Shown in pieces: positions 2,770 to 43,379 of a stretch of DNA of 64,000 bases. The position numbers and the translations under genes are program-made. The notes under the pieces are model-generated. The model was not told the origin of the DNA and made no database searches. It saw only the letters and a program-made list of their open reading frames with translations. Where the stretch lies: contig NZ_AP018207.1 in assembly GCF_002367995.1 (NCBI RefSeq), forward strand, positions 3,037,083 to 3,101,082, in the 5' to 3' direction. The DNA comes from Calothrix brevissima NIES-22 (lineage in GTDB: Bacteria > Cyanobacteriota > Cyanobacteriia > Cyanobacteriales > Nostocaceae). Every line of letters begins with the position of its first letter. Position 1 is the first letter of the stretch.

Positions 2770-3966
2770 TTAATTTGTAGTTGATTTGGCAATTGCACCT
2801 AATTGCAAACCCGATGGATAATTACCATCTTCTTTGATGCGTTTAATTTCTGCATCGCCAATTCGTAAATTCAGTTTTTGCGCTATTGTTCTGACAATAT
2901 CTCCGCGATCGATGACGCCAGCTACTGTACCAGCAGGAGAAAGTACGGTAATCCTTGGTAACTGTTCATTCTCCATTTTATTAATTACTTCTGCTAAAAC
3001 AGTAGATTCGGCAATTGTAGGTATTTCTGATAAAGGATGGACAATACTTTGAAGAGTTTGGGTTTCCCAGGCGCTTCTTTCTACTAAGCGTAAATCATCA
3101 ATGGCAACCATGCCGCGATAACGTCCATCAGCAGCTGCAAAATAAATTGGTGGCGCATTACTATCTAATAAATATGAATCAGCAAAGGAACGCAATGTTT
3201 GCTCGGCGTCAACTACGCGAAAATCGCGAGTCATTGCATCGCTAGCTGGGACTTTTAACAGAGTTTCTTGTAATGTCGTGACGCTGTCGTAGGTGTTGGC
3301 GTTGCGAATTCCAAACCAACCTATCAAGACAATCCACAAACCTAAGGCTAATTCTCTGGTAAAAAAGTCTATGGCAAAACCTAAAGCGATCGCTCCATAA
3401 CCTAAAATTTGTCCCGCCCTTGCTGCTAAGTGTACGGCTTGAAAGCGATCGCCTGTAATTTTCCATAATGCAGCTTTTAGTACTTGTCCCCCATCTAGGG
3501 GTAAGCCGGGAATTAAGTTAAATAAGGCGACAACTAAGTTAATTCTCGCTAAATCGCTCACCATGACGCTAATGGGGCTAGTTTCTGGTAAGACGTAAGA
3601 TAGTAAACGCAGGATAAAAAATAACCCAATACTTACCAAAGGCCCCGCGATCGCTACTTGAAATGCTTTAAACGGAGTTTTCGATTCTTCTTCTATCGCG
3701 GCAATTCCACCGAATAAAAATAAGGTAATGGAATTAACTCGAATTCCTTGCGATCGCGCTGCTAAACTATGACCAAGTTCGTGTAATAACACTGAAGCAA
3801 ATAGCAGCAGTGCCATTACCATTCCCGCACTCCAAGCTAAAACGCTTCCCCATGCTTCATAAGCTACCCCAAAGTTGAGGGTGGCTAACCCTAAAATTAC
3901 GAACCACAAAGGATCTAAAAATAGTGGAATGCCAAATAAAGATCCGATTTTCCAATTTGTTTGCAT
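2770..3966 (-). CDS. Site-2 protease family membrane metalloprotease with paired CBS domains
   Basis: 398 residues. The zinc motif HELGH lies at residues 62-66 in a transmembrane helix and the second motif NLIPGLPLDGG at 150-160. Together these define peptidase family M50 (SpoIVFB-like group 3). About six membrane segments occupy residues 12-215. The C-terminal 150 residues (from VPASDAMTRDF) form two CBS domains, which usually bind adenine nucleotides and may gate the protease. Such enzymes cut membrane-anchored regulators inside the bilayer; the substrate is not evident here. All catalytic residues (two His, Glu, Asp) are present. No operon partner; it converges with the WD40-DnaJ gene. Confidence 0.9.
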   Translation of the reverse strand: MQTNWKIGSLFGIPLFLDPLWFVILGLATLNFGVAYEAWGSVLAWSAGMVMALLLFASVLLHELGHSLAARSQGIRVNSITLFLFGGIAAIEEESKTPFKAFQVAIAGPLVSIGLFFILRLLSYVLPETSPISVMVSDLARINLVVALFNLIPGLPLDGGQVLKAALWKITGDRFQAVHLAARAGQILGYGAIALGFAIDFFTRELALGLWIVLIGWFGIRNANTYDSVTTLQETLLKVPASDAMTRDFRVVDAEQTLRSFADSYLLDSNAPPIYFAAADGRYRGMVAIDDLRLVERSAWETQTLQSIVHPLSEIPTIAESTVLAEVINKMENEQLPRITVLSPAGTVAGVIDRGDIVRTIAQKLNLRIGDAEIKRIKEDGNYPSGLQLGAIAKSTTN

Positions 3967-4488
3967 GACATTGTCCTAAAAGTAGATATTTACATTTCCA
4001 AGTGATATAAATAATACAAGTGCGTTTTTATACTGGATATTTGCCTATGGGCAAGCGATCGCTCAAAACTCAGATCTATCAAGTCTTGAGGGTAATGCTC
4101 TCATTTCTAGAATAGACAATTAATCATATTTAATCACTTTGAGAAAATAAATTTATTCTTCCTCAAGAATCAATAAATCTGATAAGTGCCCAGTCAGCAA
4201 CCATAATTTCTCAAGTTGCAAATTTGACTTACAGTAAAACTAATAAAATTTATTAAAACTGTTGCGGCACTTATTACAGCAAATTTATCTATTGTTCGGC
4301 AAATCTGCTGAGATAAATGCATCTCTTACTTAAGAATCAGTTATTTTTAGTGACTTTGACAATTTAAGTATCGGCTTATTTACTCATTTTATCATTTTTG
4401 TAAATAGCCGAACTCTTGCATAAAAGAGATTATGTTAGCGTTAGCTTAACGCTGGATTTAGTAATACTATATTTTTGAGATAGACAGT
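3967..4488. other. AT-rich spacer without recognisable gene
   Basis: About 520 bp between divergent genes. It contains one HIP1-type octamer near 4056 and a small inverted repeat (AGCGTTA, 3 nt, TAACGCT) at about 4437-4453, just upstream of the small membrane protein gene. No open frame with a plausible start and no RNA gene were seen. It probably holds the promoters for both flanking genes. Confidence 0.5.
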
Positions 4489-4776
4489 ATGCTTTTACCA
4501 GTTTTATACATGGAAAGCCTAGATGAAATAGACAGCGAAAAACTATCTCGCGGTGAAATTCAAGTGCGTCAGATTGCTAGAAATATGTCTGTATTTCCGG
4601 CTTTTTGTATTTATGCATTATTTTTACCGCTACTGATGATTTTATATTACTGTTATGAACCAGCGAAAGAAGCCTTTCAAGGTTTTATCTTTACTTTTAT
4701 TCTCAAACCAATTCGCTGGATTTGTTACAAAATAGTTTTTATAATTTGTGATGCTGTCAGGAAACTTAATAGTTGA
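4489..4776 (+). CDS. Small two-helix membrane protein, function unknown
   Basis: 95 residues. The N-terminal 30 residues are polar and acidic (MESLDEIDSEKLSRGEIQ). Two hydrophobic segments follow, about residues 35-57 (VFPAFCIYALFLPLLMILYY) and 65-88. An alternative start is the methionine at residue 8. I do not recognise a family. Independent promoter and terminator-like hairpins flank it, so it is probably transcribed alone. It may be a cyanobacterium-specific hypothetical. Confidence 0.5.
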   Translation: MLLPVLYMESLDEIDSEKLSRGEIQVRQIARNMSVFPAFCIYALFLPLLMILYYCYEPAKEAFQGFIFTFILKPIRWICYKIVFIICDAVRKLNS

Positions 4777-4801
4777 AGAATCATCTTAAATATTCAAAAT
4801 C

Positions 4802-4841
4802 GGCAGAAAACCAAGCACTTCTAAGCACTTAGCTTTCTGCC
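4802..4841 (+). terminator. Hairpin after the small membrane protein gene
   Basis: GGCAGAAA at 4802-4809 pairs with TTTCTGCC at 4834-4841, with a smaller CTAAG/CTTAG stem inside. It lies 25 bp after the stop codon. There is no strong T-run, so termination is only plausible. Confidence 0.35.
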
Positions 4842-4966
4842 TAGAGAATCCGTTAATCAGAATATATCTAGCGTTAAGTTAATCTGAAAACGGTAGCAAC
4901 ATATCAATTTAGGTGAGAAACAACCTGACTAAATTTTCAGGATTGTCCCGCTTTTATTCCTAAAAA

Positions 4967-5221
4967 TTATAAGCGACCAATATTAGTCAATCCTAAAACA
5001 ATCCCCACACCGATAATATGACCAAAAGCCATTGCACCGATAAATGTGGTCGCACTGATAGGTAGACCAGGAAATTTGGGGCCGACATTAGGATATTTAA
5101 TTCTGGTAGCCAGCAACACAGAGATAATGCTGCTGATGCTGATAATAGCTCCGACAGTAGGATTCCAAGCGGGTGTGGCAGGAACAGAGGCAGCAGCAGC
5201 TAGTAAAATTGATGGATTCAA
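4967..5221 (-). CDS. psaK: Photosystem I reaction centre subunit PsaK
   Basis: 84 residues, the normal size for PsaK. It has two transmembrane segments (about residues 20-40 and 60-80) joined by the stromal loop RIKYPNVGPKFPGLP, and ends in the family signature AFGHIIGVGIVLGLTNIGRL. The N-terminal residues (LLAAAASVPATPAW) match the short cleaved leader of cyanobacterial PsaK. The subunit sits at the periphery of the PSI core, binds chlorophyll and carotenoid, and in cyanobacteria helps state transitions and antenna docking. Filamentous species usually carry more than one psaK; this may be one paralogue. It is monocistronic. Confidence 0.92.
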   Translation of the reverse strand: MNPSILLAAAASVPATPAWNPTVGAIISISSIISVLLATRIKYPNVGPKFPGLPISATTFIGAMAFGHIIGVGIVLGLTNIGRL

Positions 5222-5343
5222 GGTTGTATCTCCTAAATCGGAAAATCATGTAAACCATCAAGATTATAAAATCTATTAGGAGAAAACTAAAAAATATGAC
5301 CAAAATATCTAACTTTCTGTAGGTATTTATCCGAGATAACTCA

Positions 5344-5988
5344 ATGAATATGCGAGTGAAAATTTGCGGTATTACCCAACCACAGCAGTCTGTAGCGATC
5401 GCTTCTCTTGGTGCTACGGCATTAGGATTTATTTGTGTGCCAACTTCGCCGCGCTATGTTACCATAGCGCAAATTCAAGCCGCAATTGCACCGTTACCAA
5501 AAAATATTGACAAAATTGGTGTGTTTGCTAACACCAGTATTGCACTGATCGAGCAAACAGTTGTTGAGTCTGGTTTAACTAGCGTGCAGTTGCATGGAAA
5601 TGAATTACCAGAATTTTGCTTAGAGCTGCGCCAAGCCTTACCAGGAGTAGAAGTTATTAAGGCTTTTCGGGTGCGTAGCCGCGAGCATCTACAGCAAGTG
5701 ACAGAATATAGCAATTATGTAGACACATTATTGCTAGATGCCTATCATCCCCAACAATTGGGCGGTACTGGTCAAACTTTAGATTGGACTATGCTACAAC
5801 AATTTAGCCCCAGTTCTCCTTGGTTTTTAGCTGGAGGATTGACGCCAGATAATATTTTAGATGCCCTCAGCATGATACGACCTGACGGCATAGATTTATC
5901 TAGTGGTGTGGAAAACGCACCAGGAGATAAAGATTTACATCGAGTCGCCAGGTTATTTGCCAATTTAAGGATGAAGTCTGAGGGGTGA
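5344..5988 (+). CDS. trpF: Phosphoribosylanthranilate isomerase
   Basis: 214 residues, a complete single-domain TIM barrel. It converts N-(5'-phosphoribosyl)anthranilate to CdRP, the third step of tryptophan synthesis from chorismate. The start [11 protein letters not shown] contains the catalytic cysteine (VKICGI). The catalytic aspartate lies in LLLDAYHP near residue 131, and the phosphate loop is [11 protein letters not shown]. An alternative ATG two codons later (MRVKICG) is equally possible. As in most cyanobacteria it is away from other trp genes. It converges with folE and shares a hairpin with it. Confidence 0.95.
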
Positions 5989-6022
5989 AATTTGTCCTTC
6001 CTTCTTCATCCCTGAGGCTTCA
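5970..6022. terminator. Shared hairpin between convergent trpF and folE
   Basis: GATGAAGTCTGAGGGGTGAA at 5970-5989 pairs with TTCATCCCTGAGGCTTCATC at 6004-6023, with three mismatches or wobbles, followed on the + strand by TTTT. It overlaps the last codons of trpF. A bidirectional terminator is likely. Confidence 0.6.
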
Positions 6023-6026
6023 TCTT

Positions 6027-6734
6027 TTAGAAAAACGCTGCTTGATGGCGAATCAAGTTTAAGAATTCTTCGCGGGTTTTTTGTTCTTCTTGGAAGACAC
6101 CCAGCATAGCGCTAGTCACAGTCCAAGAACCTGGTTTTTGGACACCACGCATTACCATGCACATATGAGTAGCTTCCATCACTACAGCTACTCCGTGAGG
6201 ATTGAGGATAGTCTGCACTGCTTCAGCAATTTGGCGGGTCAGTCTTTCTTGAACTTGCAGACGACGGGAATACATCTCGACAATCCGCGCTAGCTTACTC
6301 AATCCCACAACTTTTTGGTTAGGGATGTAAGCAACATGCGCTCTCCCCATGAAAGGTAACATGTGATGTTCGCACAGGCTAAAGAAGTTAATATCCCGAA
6401 CTAACACCATTTCGCTATGGCCTTCATCAAAGATGGCTCCATTGACGAGTTGCTCAAGAGATTGGTTATAGCCACTGGTGAGAAAGCGCATCGCCTCTGC
6501 TACCCGCTTGGGGGTTTTCAACAGACCTTCACGTTCTGGATCTTCTCCCACACCTAGAAGGATTTGGTGGACGGCGGCGGTCATTCGCTCCATATCTTCA
6601 TCTTTGGGATGATGCAATTCCGGTTCATGGCCGTCATGGGTATTGCGATCGGGTCTGAGTGTGATAGCATCTGCTAAATCGGGAATTAGAGGTGATTGAG
6701 AGCGATTAGAACCGTTAGAACTCGCGATAGTCAT
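6027..6734 (-). CDS. folE: GTP cyclohydrolase I
   Basis: 235 residues. It converts GTP to 7,8-dihydroneopterin triphosphate, the first step towards tetrahydrofolate and pterins. The zinc ligands Cys121 and His124 ([10 protein letters not shown]) and Cys192 (THMCMVMRG) are all present. The motif [20 protein letters not shown] is the family core. The first about 45 residues are a polar non-conserved extension, common in cyanobacterial FolE. The enzyme works as a decamer in the cytosol. It converges with trpF, and a long spacer lies upstream. Confidence 0.96.
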
Positions 6735-7598
6735 ATAGTAAATCTTGGTAAAGGTTTGTCATTTGTCATTTGTGGCAAAGTTGAGGTAGTTAGTTGAACT
6801 ACTTGTCTGATTTAAGGCAGTTTTATCTCAGACTTTGCGCTTTGTCATGTTGACAAAGTAGCGATGGCAACTTTGTCCTTTGTCATTTGTGATGAGCCAA
6901 AACAAATGACCGACAACGAAGGACTGATTTAGAGAACGCCAGTATGAGAAATCAGAATTAATTGATTAATTGCTGCTTGTGGTAGCAATAAAGCTGTGTA
7001 CAAAATCTTTGCCGTATCCCACAGTTCAGTAGTAATTAAGGCGCATCGTTTTGGCTCAACGCTCATTCTCTTTCCAAATTGGTTGGCGGTTCTACAAGCT
7101 TTTTCTACACCCCATTATGTGAATCTCTCGGTAGGTCATAGATTAAATTAATCTAATGAATAGATTAAATAAATCTAAATAATCCGAAGATTTTAGATGG
7201 CAGTTGTTATATTACAATGCCATGATGGGTTTCTTGATAGTTAAGTCTTTGTCCAGGGATGACAACACATTGTCCGTCTGGATAATTTCATGGTAACACT
7301 CAAAAGTAGTCAGCAAATTTGAGACAAACCATCTAAGTTCAATAATTACTAATAGGTAATTCGTAATTACTCATGAAAATCACATAGCAGTTACTAAACT
7401 AAAAATTGAGTCTTGCTTCTAGGTAGAGCAACCCGACCAAGATTGTAACTACGAATTACGAATTATCAATTATGAATTGCGCTTTGACTAAGTTTGTCAA
7501 ACATGAAAACGCCTATGACTGAGAAGATTGTTAAAAATCTTTAAGCGTCATAGGCAATTATAGCATTGCTGCCATGCTAATCAAGCATCTGGGGGTTT
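6735..7598. other. Long spacer with short repeats, no gene seen
   Basis: About 860 bp between the start of folE and the stop of accA. It holds TTTGTCATTTGTCATTTG-type heptamer repeats near 6757-6780 and 6885-6900, AT-rich inverted repeats built on TAGATTAAAT around 7140-7185, and a piece of ACGAATTACGAATTA repeat near 7445-7470. No open frame with convincing coding character was found. The accA-side hairpin is listed separately. Confidence 0.5.
7511..7555 (-). terminator. Probable accA terminator hairpin
   Basis: GCCTATGAC (7511-7519) and GTCATAGGC (7547-7555) form a perfect 9-bp stem about 45 bp after the accA stop. On the minus strand the stem is followed by GTTTTC, a short T-run. Confidence 0.55.
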
Positions 7599-37899: not shown

Positions 37900-37902
37900 A
37901 AT

Positions 37903-38312
37903 CGATTAGATCAACTCATAAATGAGTTTTGTGGAAGCGTAATTCGATTTGATTAATTCATTTATAAGTTTTGTTTAAACGTAATTCGATTTGATATAAG
38001 TGTTTATCGATTAGCTCAATTCATTTATAAGTTTCGCTTAAACGTAATTCGATTTGATTAATTCATTTCTAAGTTTTGTAGAAGCGTAATTCGAGCAGAA
38101 ATAAGTGTTTATCGATTAGCTCAATTCATTTATAAGTTTCGCTTAAATGTAATTCGATTTGATTAATCCATTTCTAAGTTTTGTAGAAGCGTAATTCGAG
38201 CAGAAATAAGTGTTTATCGATTAGATCAACTCATAAATGAGTTTCGCTTAAACGTAATTCGATTAGACATCAGCATTTATCGATTCGATCAATGCTTTTG
38301 TTGATTTTGTTT
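37903..38312. repeat. Higher-order tandem array, 105-bp period made of 42+42+21 bp modules
   Basis: Units start with CGATTAG at 37903, 38008, 38113 and 38218, exactly 105 bp apart. Each unit has two related 42-bp modules (CGATTAGCTCAATTCATTTA... and CGATTTGATTAATTCATTTC..., both ending GTAATT) and one 21-bp module (ending AGTGTTTAT). The last unit is shortened to 42+21 plus a diverged tail. The sequence is AT-rich and contains in-frame TAA codons, so it does not encode a repeat protein on the + strand. Confidence 0.92.
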
Positions 38313-38314
38313 TA

Positions 38315-38430
38315 AGGGACTTCCAAATAAAAAAACATCCCAATCATTAACTTACCAAGCCCGCAACTCGTAGGGGCGGGGTTACCCCGCCCCTACAATT
38401 TGGGATAATTTATTTTCTGGAGTTTCCTTA
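38315..38430. mobile_element. MITE-like element, AGGGACTTCCAA family, copy 2
   Basis: Begins AGGGACTTCCAAATAAAAAA and ends TTTTCTGGAGTTTCCTTA. The interior holds CGTAGGGGCGGGG/CCCCGCCCCTACA, a perfect hairpin. It immediately follows the 105-bp array. Compare copy 1 at 10017 and the damaged copy at 59412, which shares the ACATCC...AATTAAC and CGTAGGGGCG parts. Confidence 0.65.
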
Positions 38431-38550
38431 GCATTAATGAATCGGACAACTGTTCGACTTTACAGGCTACCAAGCTATCCGACTCGGTTTGATATTTGGA
38501 GGCAGATTTTTATCAACCTCACTGGATTAAGGCTGGACTCTTTTTGGTAC

Positions 38551-38632
38551 TGCGCCGCACAACCACAACCCGAAAACGCGCGTTATAGTTGCGATACGCC
38601 GAACGGCAATGAACCACCACACAGCAGAATCG
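38551..38632 (-). pseudogene. Decayed copy of the 3' end (variable-region-like segment) of the caspase-FGE gene
   Basis: 82 bp aligning with the last about 125 bp of the caspase-FGE gene at 38824-38960. A 24-bp block coding for FRVVVVRR is identical. The copy has two internal deletions (about 20 and 23 bp) and a handful of substitutions. In the part that matches the central variable segment there are only two differences, and both are adenines in this copy (coding strand) where the intact gene has C and T. The deletions destroy the frame. It may be a remnant of a second FGE gene, or of a DGR template or variable repeat. Confidence 0.7.
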
Positions 38633-38716
38633 TAGGGTGTGTTGTCGCGCAGCGCAACGCACCGATGCACCATCAACAATTAACGGTGCGTTAGCCTATG
38701 GCATAACACACCCTAC
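38632..38716. mobile_element. Small inverted-repeat element (GTAGGGTGTGTT family)
   Basis: 85 bp with 14-bp ends GTAGGGTGTGTTGT and ATAACACACCCTAC, matching at 13 of 14. Inside, GCGCAACGCACCG pairs with CGGTGCGTTAGCC. It abuts the decayed FGE copy exactly, so it probably inserted into it. Confidence 0.75.
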
Positions 38717-38823
38717 TGGACTCATCTAAAAACCATAAAAAAATTGATCGCGCTTTGCGCGAAGGGTTAAGAAGGGTAAAGAAAAAAGTGCAGAGAGCTA
38801 AAGGGCAAGAGTGTAAAGTGCTA

Positions 38824-40740
38824 TTAAGTCCAGCGCCGCACAACCACAACCCGAAACCCCACGCGGTTGTCCCAACCGCCACGCGCGTAATAGTTGCGAG
38901 ACGCCGAACGGCAATCCCTGGGAGCGTAGTTCCACGAACCACCACGCAGCAGTCGATTTTTATTATTTTCATCATCACCAACTAACAAAGTACTAGCGTC
39001 TGTTGGTGCATTATTATAGTTATCGTGCCACTCATCCTGACACCACTCCCATACATTACCACACATATCAAATAAACCAAAGGGGTTGGCAGGAAATTTT
39101 CCGACATCGGTTGTTTGCTCCCGATATTCACCTTTTGTGCCAGAACCGTAGGTGTAATTTCCATTGTAATTGGCTAAATCGGTGGTAATCGTTTCGCCAA
39201 AATAAAACGGGGTAGTTGTTCCCCCACGACAAGCATATTCCCATTCGGCTTCACTGGGTAAGCGATAGGTTTCACCTGTCTTTTTCGAGAGTCTGGCGCA
39301 AAACTCAATTGCATCATCCCATGAAACACGTTCAACAGGTCGATTAGCGCCTTTAAAATTGGATGGATCGGGATTTAAATCAATATTTACTTTATCAAGA
39401 GCAGCGACGGCTTGCCATTGGCTCTGAGTTACGGGAAATTTCCCCATGAAAAACGGTTGAATGGTGACGTTGTGCAGTGGTCTTTCCCAATCAAGTCGTT
39501 CTGGCTCATTCTCTGGGGAACCCATGAGAAATTTACCACCGGGAATTGCTACCATTTCTAAAACTACGCCATTACCCAGGCTTTCTGTAAAAAACTCAGC
39601 ACTTCCCTGACTGTGTACCTTCACTATTTCCAAGTCCAACTGATTCGTCGTCTTCTGGGTAGGGTTTTTTGATTTACCAAGAATCAATTCTTCAATTGGC
39701 GCAACATCTTCATCTCTCAACCCCAAATGTTGCTGATAGTCTCTCAAATCATTGAAAGTAGTTTCACTTAGTGCTGGCTCATCTTTAATTGTCTCAACCA
39801 GCGTTTCCTTATATTCTGCTAATTTCCGCTCATACTCACGATATGGTTGTAGAACTTCGGCTTCAATAGCATCAGCAATCTCAGTATCAAGTTTCCACTG
39901 AACGCGCAATGAGTTTAACAAGCGACGGGCGGGGGTGGTAAACTTACCACGATTGAGGCGGCGTTCTACTTCCTTGCGATATTTCAGCCGAGGATCATCC
40001 TTGGGCGACTTAGCTAGAAAAATCCGGTAACCTTCCTTAATCGGATAGAACTCTGGTGTCATGGCGGGGACTGCTTCTTGTACTTTGCTTTTCGCATACT
40101 TATGCAACTCATCTACCGCAATCCAGCCATCACCATCTACATCTGCTGCACCTTTTTCAATTCCTTCTACTAAATAATGGGTGTAAATCGAAAGTTCCAA
40201 GCCATCGGATTGAAAAGCATATTGCATAGAAGTAGAAGCGGTGAGAATTGCTCTACCTTCACCGCCTAAATGCTGTTGCAAATCAATATTACCGCCATCT
40301 TTAGCGGTTAAATCCTTGGCAAATGCACCACTAAAGCAGCAATCTAAAATTACTACCAGTCGCTTAGATTTGCTTTCGTTCATCAAACTATGTACAGTTC
40401 TGGCGGCTACGGCGGAAGTTGGAATCAACTTTCCCTGATTTTTCCGGGTGTAGCGCGTCGAAAAGAAAAAATCACCATTATCTACTTTTACGCCATGACC
40501 AGAAAAATATAAAAGCAATAGGTCATCTTTTTGACGATTGGCATACAAATTATAAATAGCATCTTCCATGTCTTGCCGTGGGGGATCTTTTAGCACGGTG
40601 ATATCCCCCTCCGCAAAACCGCCCATTTCTGGGTTGAGCAAAACTCGCCGCATCGCCTCTACATCTTTGACAGCGCTTGGTAGGGGTGCTAATCCCGGTT
40701 CATATTCACTAATCCCTATCAGCAGTGCTACCTTCGCCAT
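38824..40740 (-). CDS. Orthocaspase (C14 peptidase) fused to FGE-sulfatase/C-type-lectin-fold domain
   Basis: 638 residues. The caspase-like domain covers residues 1-250, with the catalytic His82 (YFSGHG) and Cys135 (ILDCCFSG) both present. A helical linker lies at about 255-375. Residues about 385-635 form an FGE-sulfatase (SUMF1-type) domain: MVAIPGGKFLMGSPENEPE, FPVTQSQW, PVERVSWDDAIEFC, YRLPSEAEWEYACRGG, GLFDMCGNVWEWCQDEW, LLRGGSWNYAPRDCRSASRN and VGFRVVVVRRW. The lectin-like C-terminal segment (RGGSWN...GFRVV) has the layout of DGR-diversified target proteins. The first 32 bp overlap the upstream EACC1-like gene. By analogy with conflict systems, the FGE part would sense a ligand and the caspase would act as a proteolytic effector. 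Confidence 0.92.
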   Translation of the reverse strand: MAKVALLIGISEYEPGLAPLPSAVKDVEAMRRVLLNPEMGGFAEGDITVLKDPPRQDMEDAIYNLYANRQKDDLLLLYFSGHGVKVDNGDFFFSTRYTRKNQGKLIPTSAVAARTVHSLMNESKSKRLVVILDCCFSGAFAKDLTAKDGGNIDLQQHLGGEGRAILTASTSMQYAFQSDGLELSIYTHYLVEGIEKGAADVDGDGWIAVDELHKYAKSKVQEAVPAMTPEFYPIKEGYRIFLAKSPKDDPRLKYRKEVERRLNRGKFTTPARRLLNSLRVQWKLDTEIADAIEAEVLQPYREYERKLAEYKETLVETIKDEPALSETTFNDLRDYQQHLGLRDEDVAPIEELILGKSKNPTQKTTNQLDLEIVKVHSQGSAEFFTESLGNGVVLEMVAIPGGKFLMGSPENEPERLDWERPLHNVTIQPFFMGKFPVTQSQWQAVAALDKVNIDLNPDPSNFKGANRPVERVSWDDAIEFCARLSKKTGETYRLPSEAEWEYACRGGTTTPFYFGETITTDLANYNGNYTYGSGTKGEYREQTTDVGKFPANPFGLFDMCGNVWEWCQDEWHDNYNNAPTDASTLLVGDDENNKNRLLRGGSWNYAPRDCRSASRNYYARGGWDNRVGFRVVVVRRWT

Positions 40741-41143
40741 GTTCGCTGTCTTGTTTCTTTTGGGTATTATTCAAAAAATCCTGTGCTTTTTGGTAAGCAA
40801 AGTCAAACTCTTCCCGACTACTAGCTTCTAGGTTGAGTTCTCTACCATCGCTACCTTTGACTACTAGCTTAATGGGTTTGTTGCCGAAGCGATCGCTCAA
40901 AAAGGTAAACAAGTTTTTGATATTCGCCGGATTAATTTCTAAATTTAACAATCCCAACAAAAAGCCGCCGAAAGCTTTTGCACCCCTGGGTGTATCTTCC
41001 ACGGTTACTAAATCTGCTGTTTCTACGCCATCGACTTCGTTTAGCTGGGGGCGCAAATTTTCTGCTTCTGCTTGCAAATCTTTCTCGTCTAAACCCAGCC
41101 CAGCTAAGTCAACAGTCACCTGAACGTTAGATATAGTTGCCAT
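40709..41143 (-). CDS. EACC1-like small protein (effector-associated constant component)
   Basis: 144 residues. It has an N-terminal strand (ISNVQVTVDLAGLG), a helix, the turn VEDTPRGAKAFGG, an amphipathic segment, a beta pair KPIKLVVKGSDGRELNLEA and a final helix with a charged tail. This order matches EACC1, a small constant partner of caspase, trypsin and other effectors in bacterial conflict systems described by comparative genomics; I assign it from pattern memory, not from a search. The gene overlaps the caspase-FGE start by 32 bp in another frame, so translation is coupled. It may hold the caspase inactive or link it to a sensor. Confidence 0.65.
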   Translation of the reverse strand: MATISNVQVTVDLAGLGLDEKDLQAEAENLRPQLNEVDGVETADLVTVEDTPRGAKAFGGFLLGLLNLEINPANIKNLFTFLSDRFGNKPIKLVVKGSDGRELNLEASSREEFDFAYQKAQDFLNNTQKKQDSEHGEGSTADRD

Positions 41144-42174: not shown

Positions 42175-42862
42175 GTAAGTGAGGAATCGGAATCTTTTTG
42201 CTGACTTGTTCTAATACTTTTAATCCCTGTAAAGAACCGCGAATTAAACGAATAGCAGCTATCGGCTGTTTAATAAATGTCATTGCTAAAGGTAAAGGGC
42301 GCAGGGAACCATCGGGGCTAATGGCTGATGTTAAGTCGGGGATATCATGGTGACAATCATCGCTGACGACACGCAATATTGTGACTGATACGCCAAGGGA
42401 ATTGAAAAATTCTAAGGCTGCAAATCCTTCCATATCGACAACATCAGCGCCTAGAGTTTCACCAAGTTGACGTTTTTCTGTTGCGGAACAAATTACGCGA
42501 TCGCTTGTTAGTCCCTTAACTAAGGTAAGCTGTGAATTTAATTGCGATCGCATCTGTGCTGTAAAAGCACTATCGCACTCTTGCGCTTTTCCCTGATAAA
42601 TACAGTTTTCATACAATACAATCTTTCCCACTGGGTAATTGGGCGATAAACTACCACACAAACCCATCAGCAGTATTCTTAGCTGTGGATGATTGCTAAA
42701 TATTCCATCTGCTTGCAATTTGTGCAGGTATGTGGTTAATGGTTTTATACCTACAGGAATCGAAATGACATTTGGCTTGGTGGTAGTGACACGGTTTAAG
42801 CCACGACACACAGCTTGATATTCTGCGCCTTGAGGGACAAGGATTAATGGGGTATGGGGCAT
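42152..42862 (-). CDS. hpnG: Nucleoside-phosphorylase family protein, probable HpnG (adenosylhopane nucleosidase)
   Basis: 236 residues. PNP/UDP-type blocks: LLMGLCGSLSPNYPVGKIVL (substrate pocket), LTSDRVICSATEKRQLG, VVDMEGFAALEFF (ribose-binding Met-Glu) and LRVVSDDCHHD (the catalytic acid). With hpnA and hpnH 5-6 kb away, it fits HpnG, which removes adenine from adenosylhopane to give ribosylhopane. The start ATG lies inside a CCCCATG/CCCAATG heptamer array and has no Shine-Dalgarno sequence. The last residues (LPEITPTG) and the stop codon come from a MITE-like element. The family assignment is firm, HpnG likely. The native ends may have been replaced. Confidence 0.75.
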   Translation of the reverse strand: MPHTPLILVPQGAEYQAVCRGLNRVTTTKPNVISIPVGIKPLTTYLHKLQADGIFSNHPQLRILLMGLCGSLSPNYPVGKIVLYENCIYQGKAQECDSAFTAQMRSQLNSQLTLVKGLTSDRVICSATEKRQLGETLGADVVDMEGFAALEFFNSLGVSVTILRVVSDDCHHDIPDLTSAISPDGSLRPLPLAMTFIKQPIAAIRLIRGSLQGLKVLEQVSKKIPIPHLPEITPTG

Positions 42863-42929
42863 TGGGCATTGGGCATGGGGTAAGCTTGAGTTTTGAGATT
42901 CATAAATTAAAGAATGAGGCTCAAAGACT

Positions 42930-43181
42930 CGTTAATCAGTCTTTGATACTCGTTAACCAGTCTTTGATACTCGTTAATCAGTCTTTGATACTCGTTAACC
43001 AGTCTTTGATACTCATTAATCAGTCTTTGATACTCGTTAATCAGTCTTTGATACTCGTTAATCAGTCTTTGATACTCGTTAACCAGTCTTTGATACTCGT
43101 TAACCAGTCTTTGATACTTGTTAATCAGTCTTTGATACTGATTAACCAGTCTTTGATACTCATTAATCAGTCTCAAAGACT
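42930..43181. repeat. Twelve tandem 21-bp repeats
   Basis: Consensus CGTTAAYCAGTCTTTGATAC(T), units starting every 21 bp from 42930 to 43161. Variation is almost confined to four positions. Because 21 is a multiple of three, frames remain open on both strands: LVNQSLI repeats on +, and RLVNEYQ heptads (coiled-coil-like, TTG start at 43197) on -. Neither frame has a recognisable ribosome site. It lies 45 bp upstream of the HpnG-like gene. Confidence 0.95.
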
Positions 43182-43182
43182 G

Positions 43183-43212
43183 AAAAAGCACTGTCAATGG
43201 ACAATGCTTTTT
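43183..43212. terminator. Terminator-like hairpin beside the 21-bp array
   Basis: AAAAAGCACTGTC pairs with GACAATGCTTTTT (one mismatch) with a 4-nt loop. A-run on one side and T-run on the other make it look bidirectional. On the minus strand it would separate the ferritin-like gene from the hpnG-like gene. Confidence 0.65.
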
Positions 43213-43379
43213 GTTCCTATTCTCTTATTTTTCTGAGATAGAGTGGGCGCGATCGCTGAAAGCTCAATACGGTTTAATGAAGGATAAATTGTAGGTTGAG
43301 CTTACCGTGTGTAAACCCAACAAGCAGCCGAAAATGTTGGGTTTCGGGACATCTAATTTTTTAAATACCCAATCAATTT

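Follow-up and report, generated by a model that had tools for sequence, protein, structure and literature searches.

Evidence for a former DGR variable region in a caspase-FGE gene of Calothrix brevissima NIES-22, beside the eroded remnant of its template repeat

The window analysed here is a stretch of 64,000 nucleotides from the genome of Calothrix brevissima NIES-22 (NZ_AP018207.1, positions 3,037,083 to 3,101,082), and all coordinates without a locus name are positions in it. On its minus strand lies a gene for a protein of 638 aa, in which a Pfam search detected the domains Peptidase_C14 (7.2e-22) and FGE-sulfatase (3.2e-60), and the caspase part belongs to NF047832 of NCBIfam (caspase, EACC1-associated type). 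The FGE part appears by sequence search to be related to solved FGEs and to variable protein 1 of Treponema denticola (PDB 2y3c, E=1.8e-21), which we take to be a DGR target and which differs from the window protein in that the same search matched no caspase domain. The features of the locus, named according to the reading that is argued below, are the following.

40709..41143, minus strand: companion gene of 144 aa, upstream of the caspase gene and kept adjacent in the related genomes G001, G002, G003 and G006
38824..40740, minus strand: caspase-FGE gene (putative former DGR target), with an N-terminal caspase and a C-terminal FGE-sulfatase domain
38831..38952, minus strand: variable region (VR), the 122 columns of the adenine test; the match to the template repeat of G002 covers 38827-38959
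38833..38856, minus strand: block of 24 bp that is the same in the VR and the relic, coding FRVVVVRR, the IMH-like 3' end of the VR
38748..38762, minus strand: hairpin, 61 nt past the stop codon, as behind DGR targets
38720..38725, minus strand: ATGAGT, probably what is left of the start codon of avd, by eye against G001-G003
38632..38716, no strand: MITE-like element with an inverted repeat, 95% identical to its counterpart in G002, which is sited between avd and RT
38547..38631, minus strand: relic of the template repeat (TR) with internal deletions; its pieces match the VR and the G002 TR
38397..38550, minus strand: sequence matching, with 84% identity over 156 columns (E=3.4e-35), the flank behind the TR of the complete cassette of G002

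The companion gene had no match in Pfam or NCBIfam. Just downstream of the locus, at 37901-38330, there is a tandem-like degenerate repeat array with six copies in register and spacings of 42 and 63. Another array of short repeats, at 42847-43236, is open on both strands (NQSLILV and NEYQRLI) and is probably low-complexity DNA rather than a gene.

The original prediction was made from the letters of this stretch, and sequence comparison confirmed its description of the locus. The copy is homologous to the end of the gene, has the same orientation and lies about 190 bp from the gene stop; the 24 bp coding FRVVVVRR are identical in both, and the only two differences in the central block are A in the copy against C and T in the gene. 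The copy reaches to about 38547, further than first described, and a third piece of it (38611-38627, 17 nt, 94%) also matches the gene end. When the whole genome was searched with 181 bases around the VR, six matches were obtained. Besides the query and a match of 19 bases, these were two FGE paralogues and two pieces of the copy, and since the pieces of the copy match at E=3.5e-8 and 6.3e-5, its origin by chance is unlikely. The predicted hairpin TCGCGC-TTT-GCGCGA is where it had been placed. It reads TCGCGC-AAA-GCGCGA on the gene strand, and both its sequence and its distance of 61 nt are identical in G002. The strict pattern, with a variable loop, is present in 6 of 7 intact cassettes and in 26 of 53 related loci, and because a run of T follows, the hairpin could possibly serve as a terminator as well.

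The same-genus sample consists of eight genomes, the window genome included, and a DGR reverse transcriptase (RT) is present in two of them, G002 and G003. In G002 a complete cassette (locus L042) is laid out on a single strand in the order caspase-FGE/VR, avd, RT and TR.

5650-7593: caspase-FGE gene
5209-5547: avd (NF033474, 141 bits)
4031-5074: RT (RVT_1, 1.7e-22), with the motif IGNLTSQ, the DGR form of this RT motif
about 3868-4001: TR

Three blocks of the window match this cassette in the same order. The first comprises the gene and the stretch behind the VR (83%, up to 38720), the second is the MITE-like element, which in G002 is sited between avd and RT, and the third is the flank behind the TR (38550-38397). 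The copy occupies the place of the TR, and avd and RT are absent in between. The 6-nt trace ATGAGT rests on comparison by eye, being too short for BLAST, which gave no credible match to avd around 38720..38725. The MITE-like element may be an independent insertion in the window, because such elements are dispersed. The cassette of G002 stands at another chromosomal place, with upstream neighbours unlike those of the window, and is therefore a homologous cassette and not a strict orthologue. In contrast, G006 has the upstream neighbours of the window, and it too holds a TR relic without avd or RT.

The original prediction proposed that the domain is, or was, diversified in trans, for which a DGR RT and a template would have to exist in the genome. 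The assembly of the window genome comprises 9.26 Mb in 9 contigs and is given as 100% complete, and a profile search found four RVT_1 matches in it, none of DGR type. Two of them exceed the NCBIfam cut-off of 300 for group II maturases (340 and 343 bits), the third is of the group II maturase family at 276 bits, under that cut-off, and the fourth is nearest to retron RTs, under their cut-offs, with which PADLOC concurs. Their motifs are QGGIISP, QGGVISP, QGGVVSP and QGAPTSP, and the RT of phage BPP-1 as query matched only the RT at C1:4.11 Mb (9e-4). Since the DGR RT of G002 scores 1.7e-22, the RVT_1 search should have caught an RT of this kind. For Avd, the best match in the window genome reached 24.4 bits against a cut-off of 80; it was rejected as a DGR Avd because it is far under the cut-off and has similar ones elsewhere, six of the seven other same-genus genomes (all except G006) having matches below the cut-off, of which that of G007 (C1:7210355) is an avd stub behind an FGE gene. 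When the window genome was searched with the VR and its surroundings (181 bases), the local eroded copy was the one template-like sequence to come up, and no second template was found. Separately, the retron-like RT (L004 286-2298, at C1 about 1.95 Mb of the window genome) adjoins a gene of 309 aa without a match to a PADLOC model.

With no DGR RT, no Avd over the cut-off and no other template, the VR of the window is most likely frozen, and the present tense of the prediction does not hold. It would nevertheless be conceivable that a DGR elsewhere in the cell still diversifies this VR in trans: passages of two papers report DGR targets at remote sites for cyanobacteria (PMC7517822) and, for Thiohalocapsa, activity in trans (PMC10907252), and the window keeps the IMH-like end and the hairpin. 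Furthermore, the VRs of G001 and G003 are only about 81% alike in one block of 100 columns, as against 94-97% elsewhere, despite a deletion junction that is common to both (by eye). However, the non-coding stretch behind these VRs has diverged too (about 76%), which favours recombination over trans homing, and the 9.26 Mb of the window genome yielded none of the three components searched for. Continued rewriting in trans is consequently considered very improbable, and the copy is better understood as what remains of the local template of the cassette itself.

The copy might also stem from the duplication of a caspase-FGE or FGE gene of which only a broken 3' end is left, with no DGR ever involved, as tandem FGE genes do occur in related loci (L098, L104, L105 and L110, for example). 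This reading, which is less probable still, is rejected on the flank and the end of the copy. The sequence next to the copy corresponds to the TR flank of G002 and not to the VR flank, and the copy terminates in CAGTAC like the TR of G002, whereas the VR terminates in CTGGAC; the differences between gene and TR are, moreover, adenine-specific. In comparison with the TR of G002, the copy shows two internal deletions, and one further deletion lies just beyond the 3' end of the relic (by eye). The relic and the VR of the window both carry GTGGTTGTG and AACTATWAC, where the TR of G002 has GTGATGGTG and AACAGGAAC, and these lineage-specific bases in common mark them as partners. The copy is thus taken as an eroded TR in what follows.

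The adenine test was carried out on an alignment of eight sequences and 122 columns with the TR of G002 as template. The VR of the window differs from it at 18 of 29 adenines and at 4 of 93 other bases (P=1.1e-10), and the changes comprise nine A>G, six A>T and three A>C. Against the same template, the VR of G002 itself differs at 14/29 adenines and 0/93 other bases, that of G006 at 18/29 and 8/93, that of G001 at 17/29 and 5/93, and that of G003 at 16/29 and 4/93. With the roles reversed and a VR taken as template, the bias was gone in four of four controls (P 0.61-0.92), which left out the VR of G002. Since the relic of the window itself differs from the TR of G002 (3/10 adenines, 4/68 others), part of the 18 adenine and 4 other changes belongs to the template lineage. 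The bias of the window VR is modest when the relic of the window serves as template (3/8 adenines, 2/70 others, P=0.0066), with one of the three adenine differences falling in the IMH, and the VR of G006 against its own relic differs at 15/21 adenines and 7/54 others (P=2e-6). The other changes were rejected as a clock for the time of loss, as such sites are too few (2/70). Of the two FGE paralogues of the window genome near C1:3.31 Mb, one is adenine-biased against the TR of G002 (15/27 vs 15/80, P=0.00043) and the other is not (10/28 vs 19/80, P=0.16). The original caution that two substitutions cannot prove an adenine bias was right, and the proof came from the relatives. An even spread of differences over all template bases, which together with the lack of an RT and template had been named as speaking against the prediction, did not appear; the RT was indeed missing, but the differences are adenine-specific.

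Between the window and G006, dN/dS pools the time before and after the loss of the RT and amounts to about 0.15 in the caspase part (dN 0.056, dS 0.376), 0.22 in the linker (0.102, 0.472), 0.21 in the FGE core (0.091, 0.440) and 1.65 in the 42 codons of the VR (0.362, 0.219). The caspase-FGE gene is still open and, from these codon comparisons, looks to be under purifying selection outside the VR. The VR value above 1, and the AAY-type codons common in such domains, would fit ordinary positive selection on the binding surface with an adenine pattern due to codon make-up, but this reading has next to no probability and is contradicted by the bias itself, which falls on adenines of the template no matter which base replaces them, disappears when VR and TR exchange roles and recurs in five more full-length VR/TR pairs (L067, L070, L076, L100 and L071) with 12-19 adenine changes against 0-2 others.

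Because there is an intact cassette in G002, the differences are adenine-specific, and the copy has a TR-type end and a TR flank, it is strongly supported that the C-terminus of the caspase-FGE protein is a former DGR VR and the copy the eroded TR of the same cassette, which is the core of the original prediction. The locus appears to combine the features expected of such a relic, that is, a C-terminal VR in a domain of C-type-lectin/FGE type, an IMH block with a hairpin, and a TR in the same orientation at the place of the TR. Very probably, then, a complete local DGR was followed by the loss of avd and RT, leaving an eroded TR and a VR that can no longer be rewritten. The complete cis-acting cassette would have held the caspase-FGE gene with its VR, the hairpin, avd, RT and TR, and the TR would have been copied into the gene end with random bases at the template adenines, varying the tip of the FGE (C-type-lectin-type) domain while the caspase part stayed constant. 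Domain families and published DGR work suggest that such a protein would couple ligand sensing to a caspase effector. Deletions would then have removed avd and RT, with the MITE-like element remaining in the gap, and the TR would have eroded to about 85 bp, while the receptor gene stayed open with its VR beyond rewriting; the order of the deletions and the completeness of the loss are what we infer from the present remains.

Such decay of cassettes seems to recur in many relatives. The window protein served as query in one scan, whose reach is limited to close relatives, and the 75 loci obtained became 78 with the window, G002 and G006. From these, 20 without a VP 3' end passing the filter and five with less than 2.5 kb downstream were removed, leaving 53. 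In seven of the 53, avd is accompanied by 300 aa or more of RT, and 23 have only pieces of avd or RT: avd with a truncated or absent RT was found at five loci, an avd stub at nine and the start of avd alone, at the DNA level, at nine. By the applied test, 23 loci, those of the window and G006 included, had no trace of avd. The similarity to avd ends after 20 nt in G001 and G003, 33 nt in L083, 47-62 nt in L060, L078, L092, L096, L099 and L112, 100 nt in G007, 108 nt in L118, 115 nt in L059 and L061, 120-122 nt in L065, L068, L075 and L106, 182 nt in L089 and 224 nt in L090, where the 3' part of a TR follows. Independent losses are fewer than loci, because some of these ends are common (L059/L061 and L075/L106, by eye). 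At six loci (L059, L061, L065, L068, L075 and L106) the similarity stops at about 115-122 nt with partly unrelated sequence beyond, which may reflect either a hotspot or a shared old breakpoint.

In Brasilonema sp. UFV-L1 (L071 8133-8460, outside the 53 loci owing to its short flank), a TR of 125 bp lies behind the VR, 195 nt past the stop, and 19/28 adenines and 0/97 other bases are changed between the two; a decayed avd stands between VR and TR with no RT there, and what the RT query matched in this genome does not resemble a DGR RT. In L061, whose record is a MAG, the frame of the caspase-FGE homologue hits a stop within the VR at about 7980. Another observation concerns G003, where an avd-RT-TR set (L043 3214-4760) has no FGE target gene adjacent and may have remote targets; its TR matches a gene region at C37 of G003 (L032) with 15/39 adenines and 11/116 other bases different, and the match extends beyond the TR end. 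The DGR of G003 itself (C4) was rejected as the writer of the caspase-FGE VR of G003, since the match between its TR and that VR is limited to 57 bp (8/13 adenines, 8/44 others). The caspase-FGE 3' ends of G003 (L044) and G001 (L046) have an avd-stub/MITE junction in common (by eye), and the divergence of their VRs would come either from recombination at the FGE end or from diversification at a later time.

With the RT of G002 as query, matches at E <=1e-20 were found in 13 of 30 genomes, the window genome included. Three of the 13 (G016, G017 and G029) are distant RTs, 31-32% identical, and were rejected as DGR RTs because their motif, QGAVISP, is not of DGR form; the gene beside the one in G017 is, by eye, presumably cas1. 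RT matches at E <=1e-40 occurred in 44 of the 145 genomes of the family sample, and absences are uncertain because many of the genomes searched are drafts.

Parts of this picture are already published. The published description of DGRs in cyanobacteria covers CLec modules that are part of kinase and orthocaspase proteins, remote targets, and paralogues lacking a proximal RT (PMC7517822, in part). The window cassette resembles these systems in phylum, in its caspase plus CLec/FGE architecture and in the logic of the cassette, and differs in having lost avd, RT and most of the TR. The same source reports all3226 of Nostoc sp. PCC 7120 as a remnant of TR-VR homology without a proximal RT, proposes that the diversifier is removed after the selection of a good variant, and mentions two other DGRs of PCC 7120 that might act in trans (PMC7517822). 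The window case is likewise an RT-less TR-VR remnant, but PCC 7120 keeps those two DGRs whereas no DGR RT was found in the window genome, and the window can be compared with an intact homologous cassette of the same genus. DGR targets of this kind have been proposed, in passages of another paper, as antigen sensors of conflict systems (PMC10907252). For Nostoc punctiforme, whose DGR is intact, both expression of the DGR and hypermutation specific to adenines have been reported (PMC12691664). The DGR of Bordetella phage BPP-1 has the same VR/TR/RT logic and a hairpin behind the VR, and two pieces of the G002 RT are 42% and 32% identical to Brt; in contrast, its target is a phage tail protein, and its type of hairpin has a stem of 8 bp with a conserved loop of 4 nt (PMC3240598, in part) instead of the 6-bp stem and variable 3-nt loop seen here. 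Among titles and abstracts of the open-licence literature, we recognised none that surveys related loci for stages without an RT. What goes beyond the caspase-type targets and the PCC 7120 remnant, as far as those passages of PMC7517822 go, is the recurrence.

One published remark deals with a TR-VR remnant that lacks an RT, and the window now adds to it a well-documented example for which a homologous cassette in intact form can be compared. The loci form a series, from intact cassettes through avd with a broken RT, an avd stub and a TR without RT to the hairpin only, from which one may learn what becomes of a hypervariable sensor after the loss of its diversifier, conservation as a fixed receptor or decay. 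For annotation, many caspase- and kinase-FGE genes of Nostocales may hold former VRs without an RT nearby. It is a tentative and rather doubtful idea that the disappearance of avd and RT from behind the VR belongs to the normal course of these receptors and is no accident. Nostocales would employ the DGR until a good binding tip is found and then fix that tip through loss of the writer, and the retained IMH and hairpin would keep the receptor rewritable should a DGR arrive later. If this were true, many fixations of this kind would have left their record in the serial decay, where similarity breaks off at various points in avd, RT and TR.
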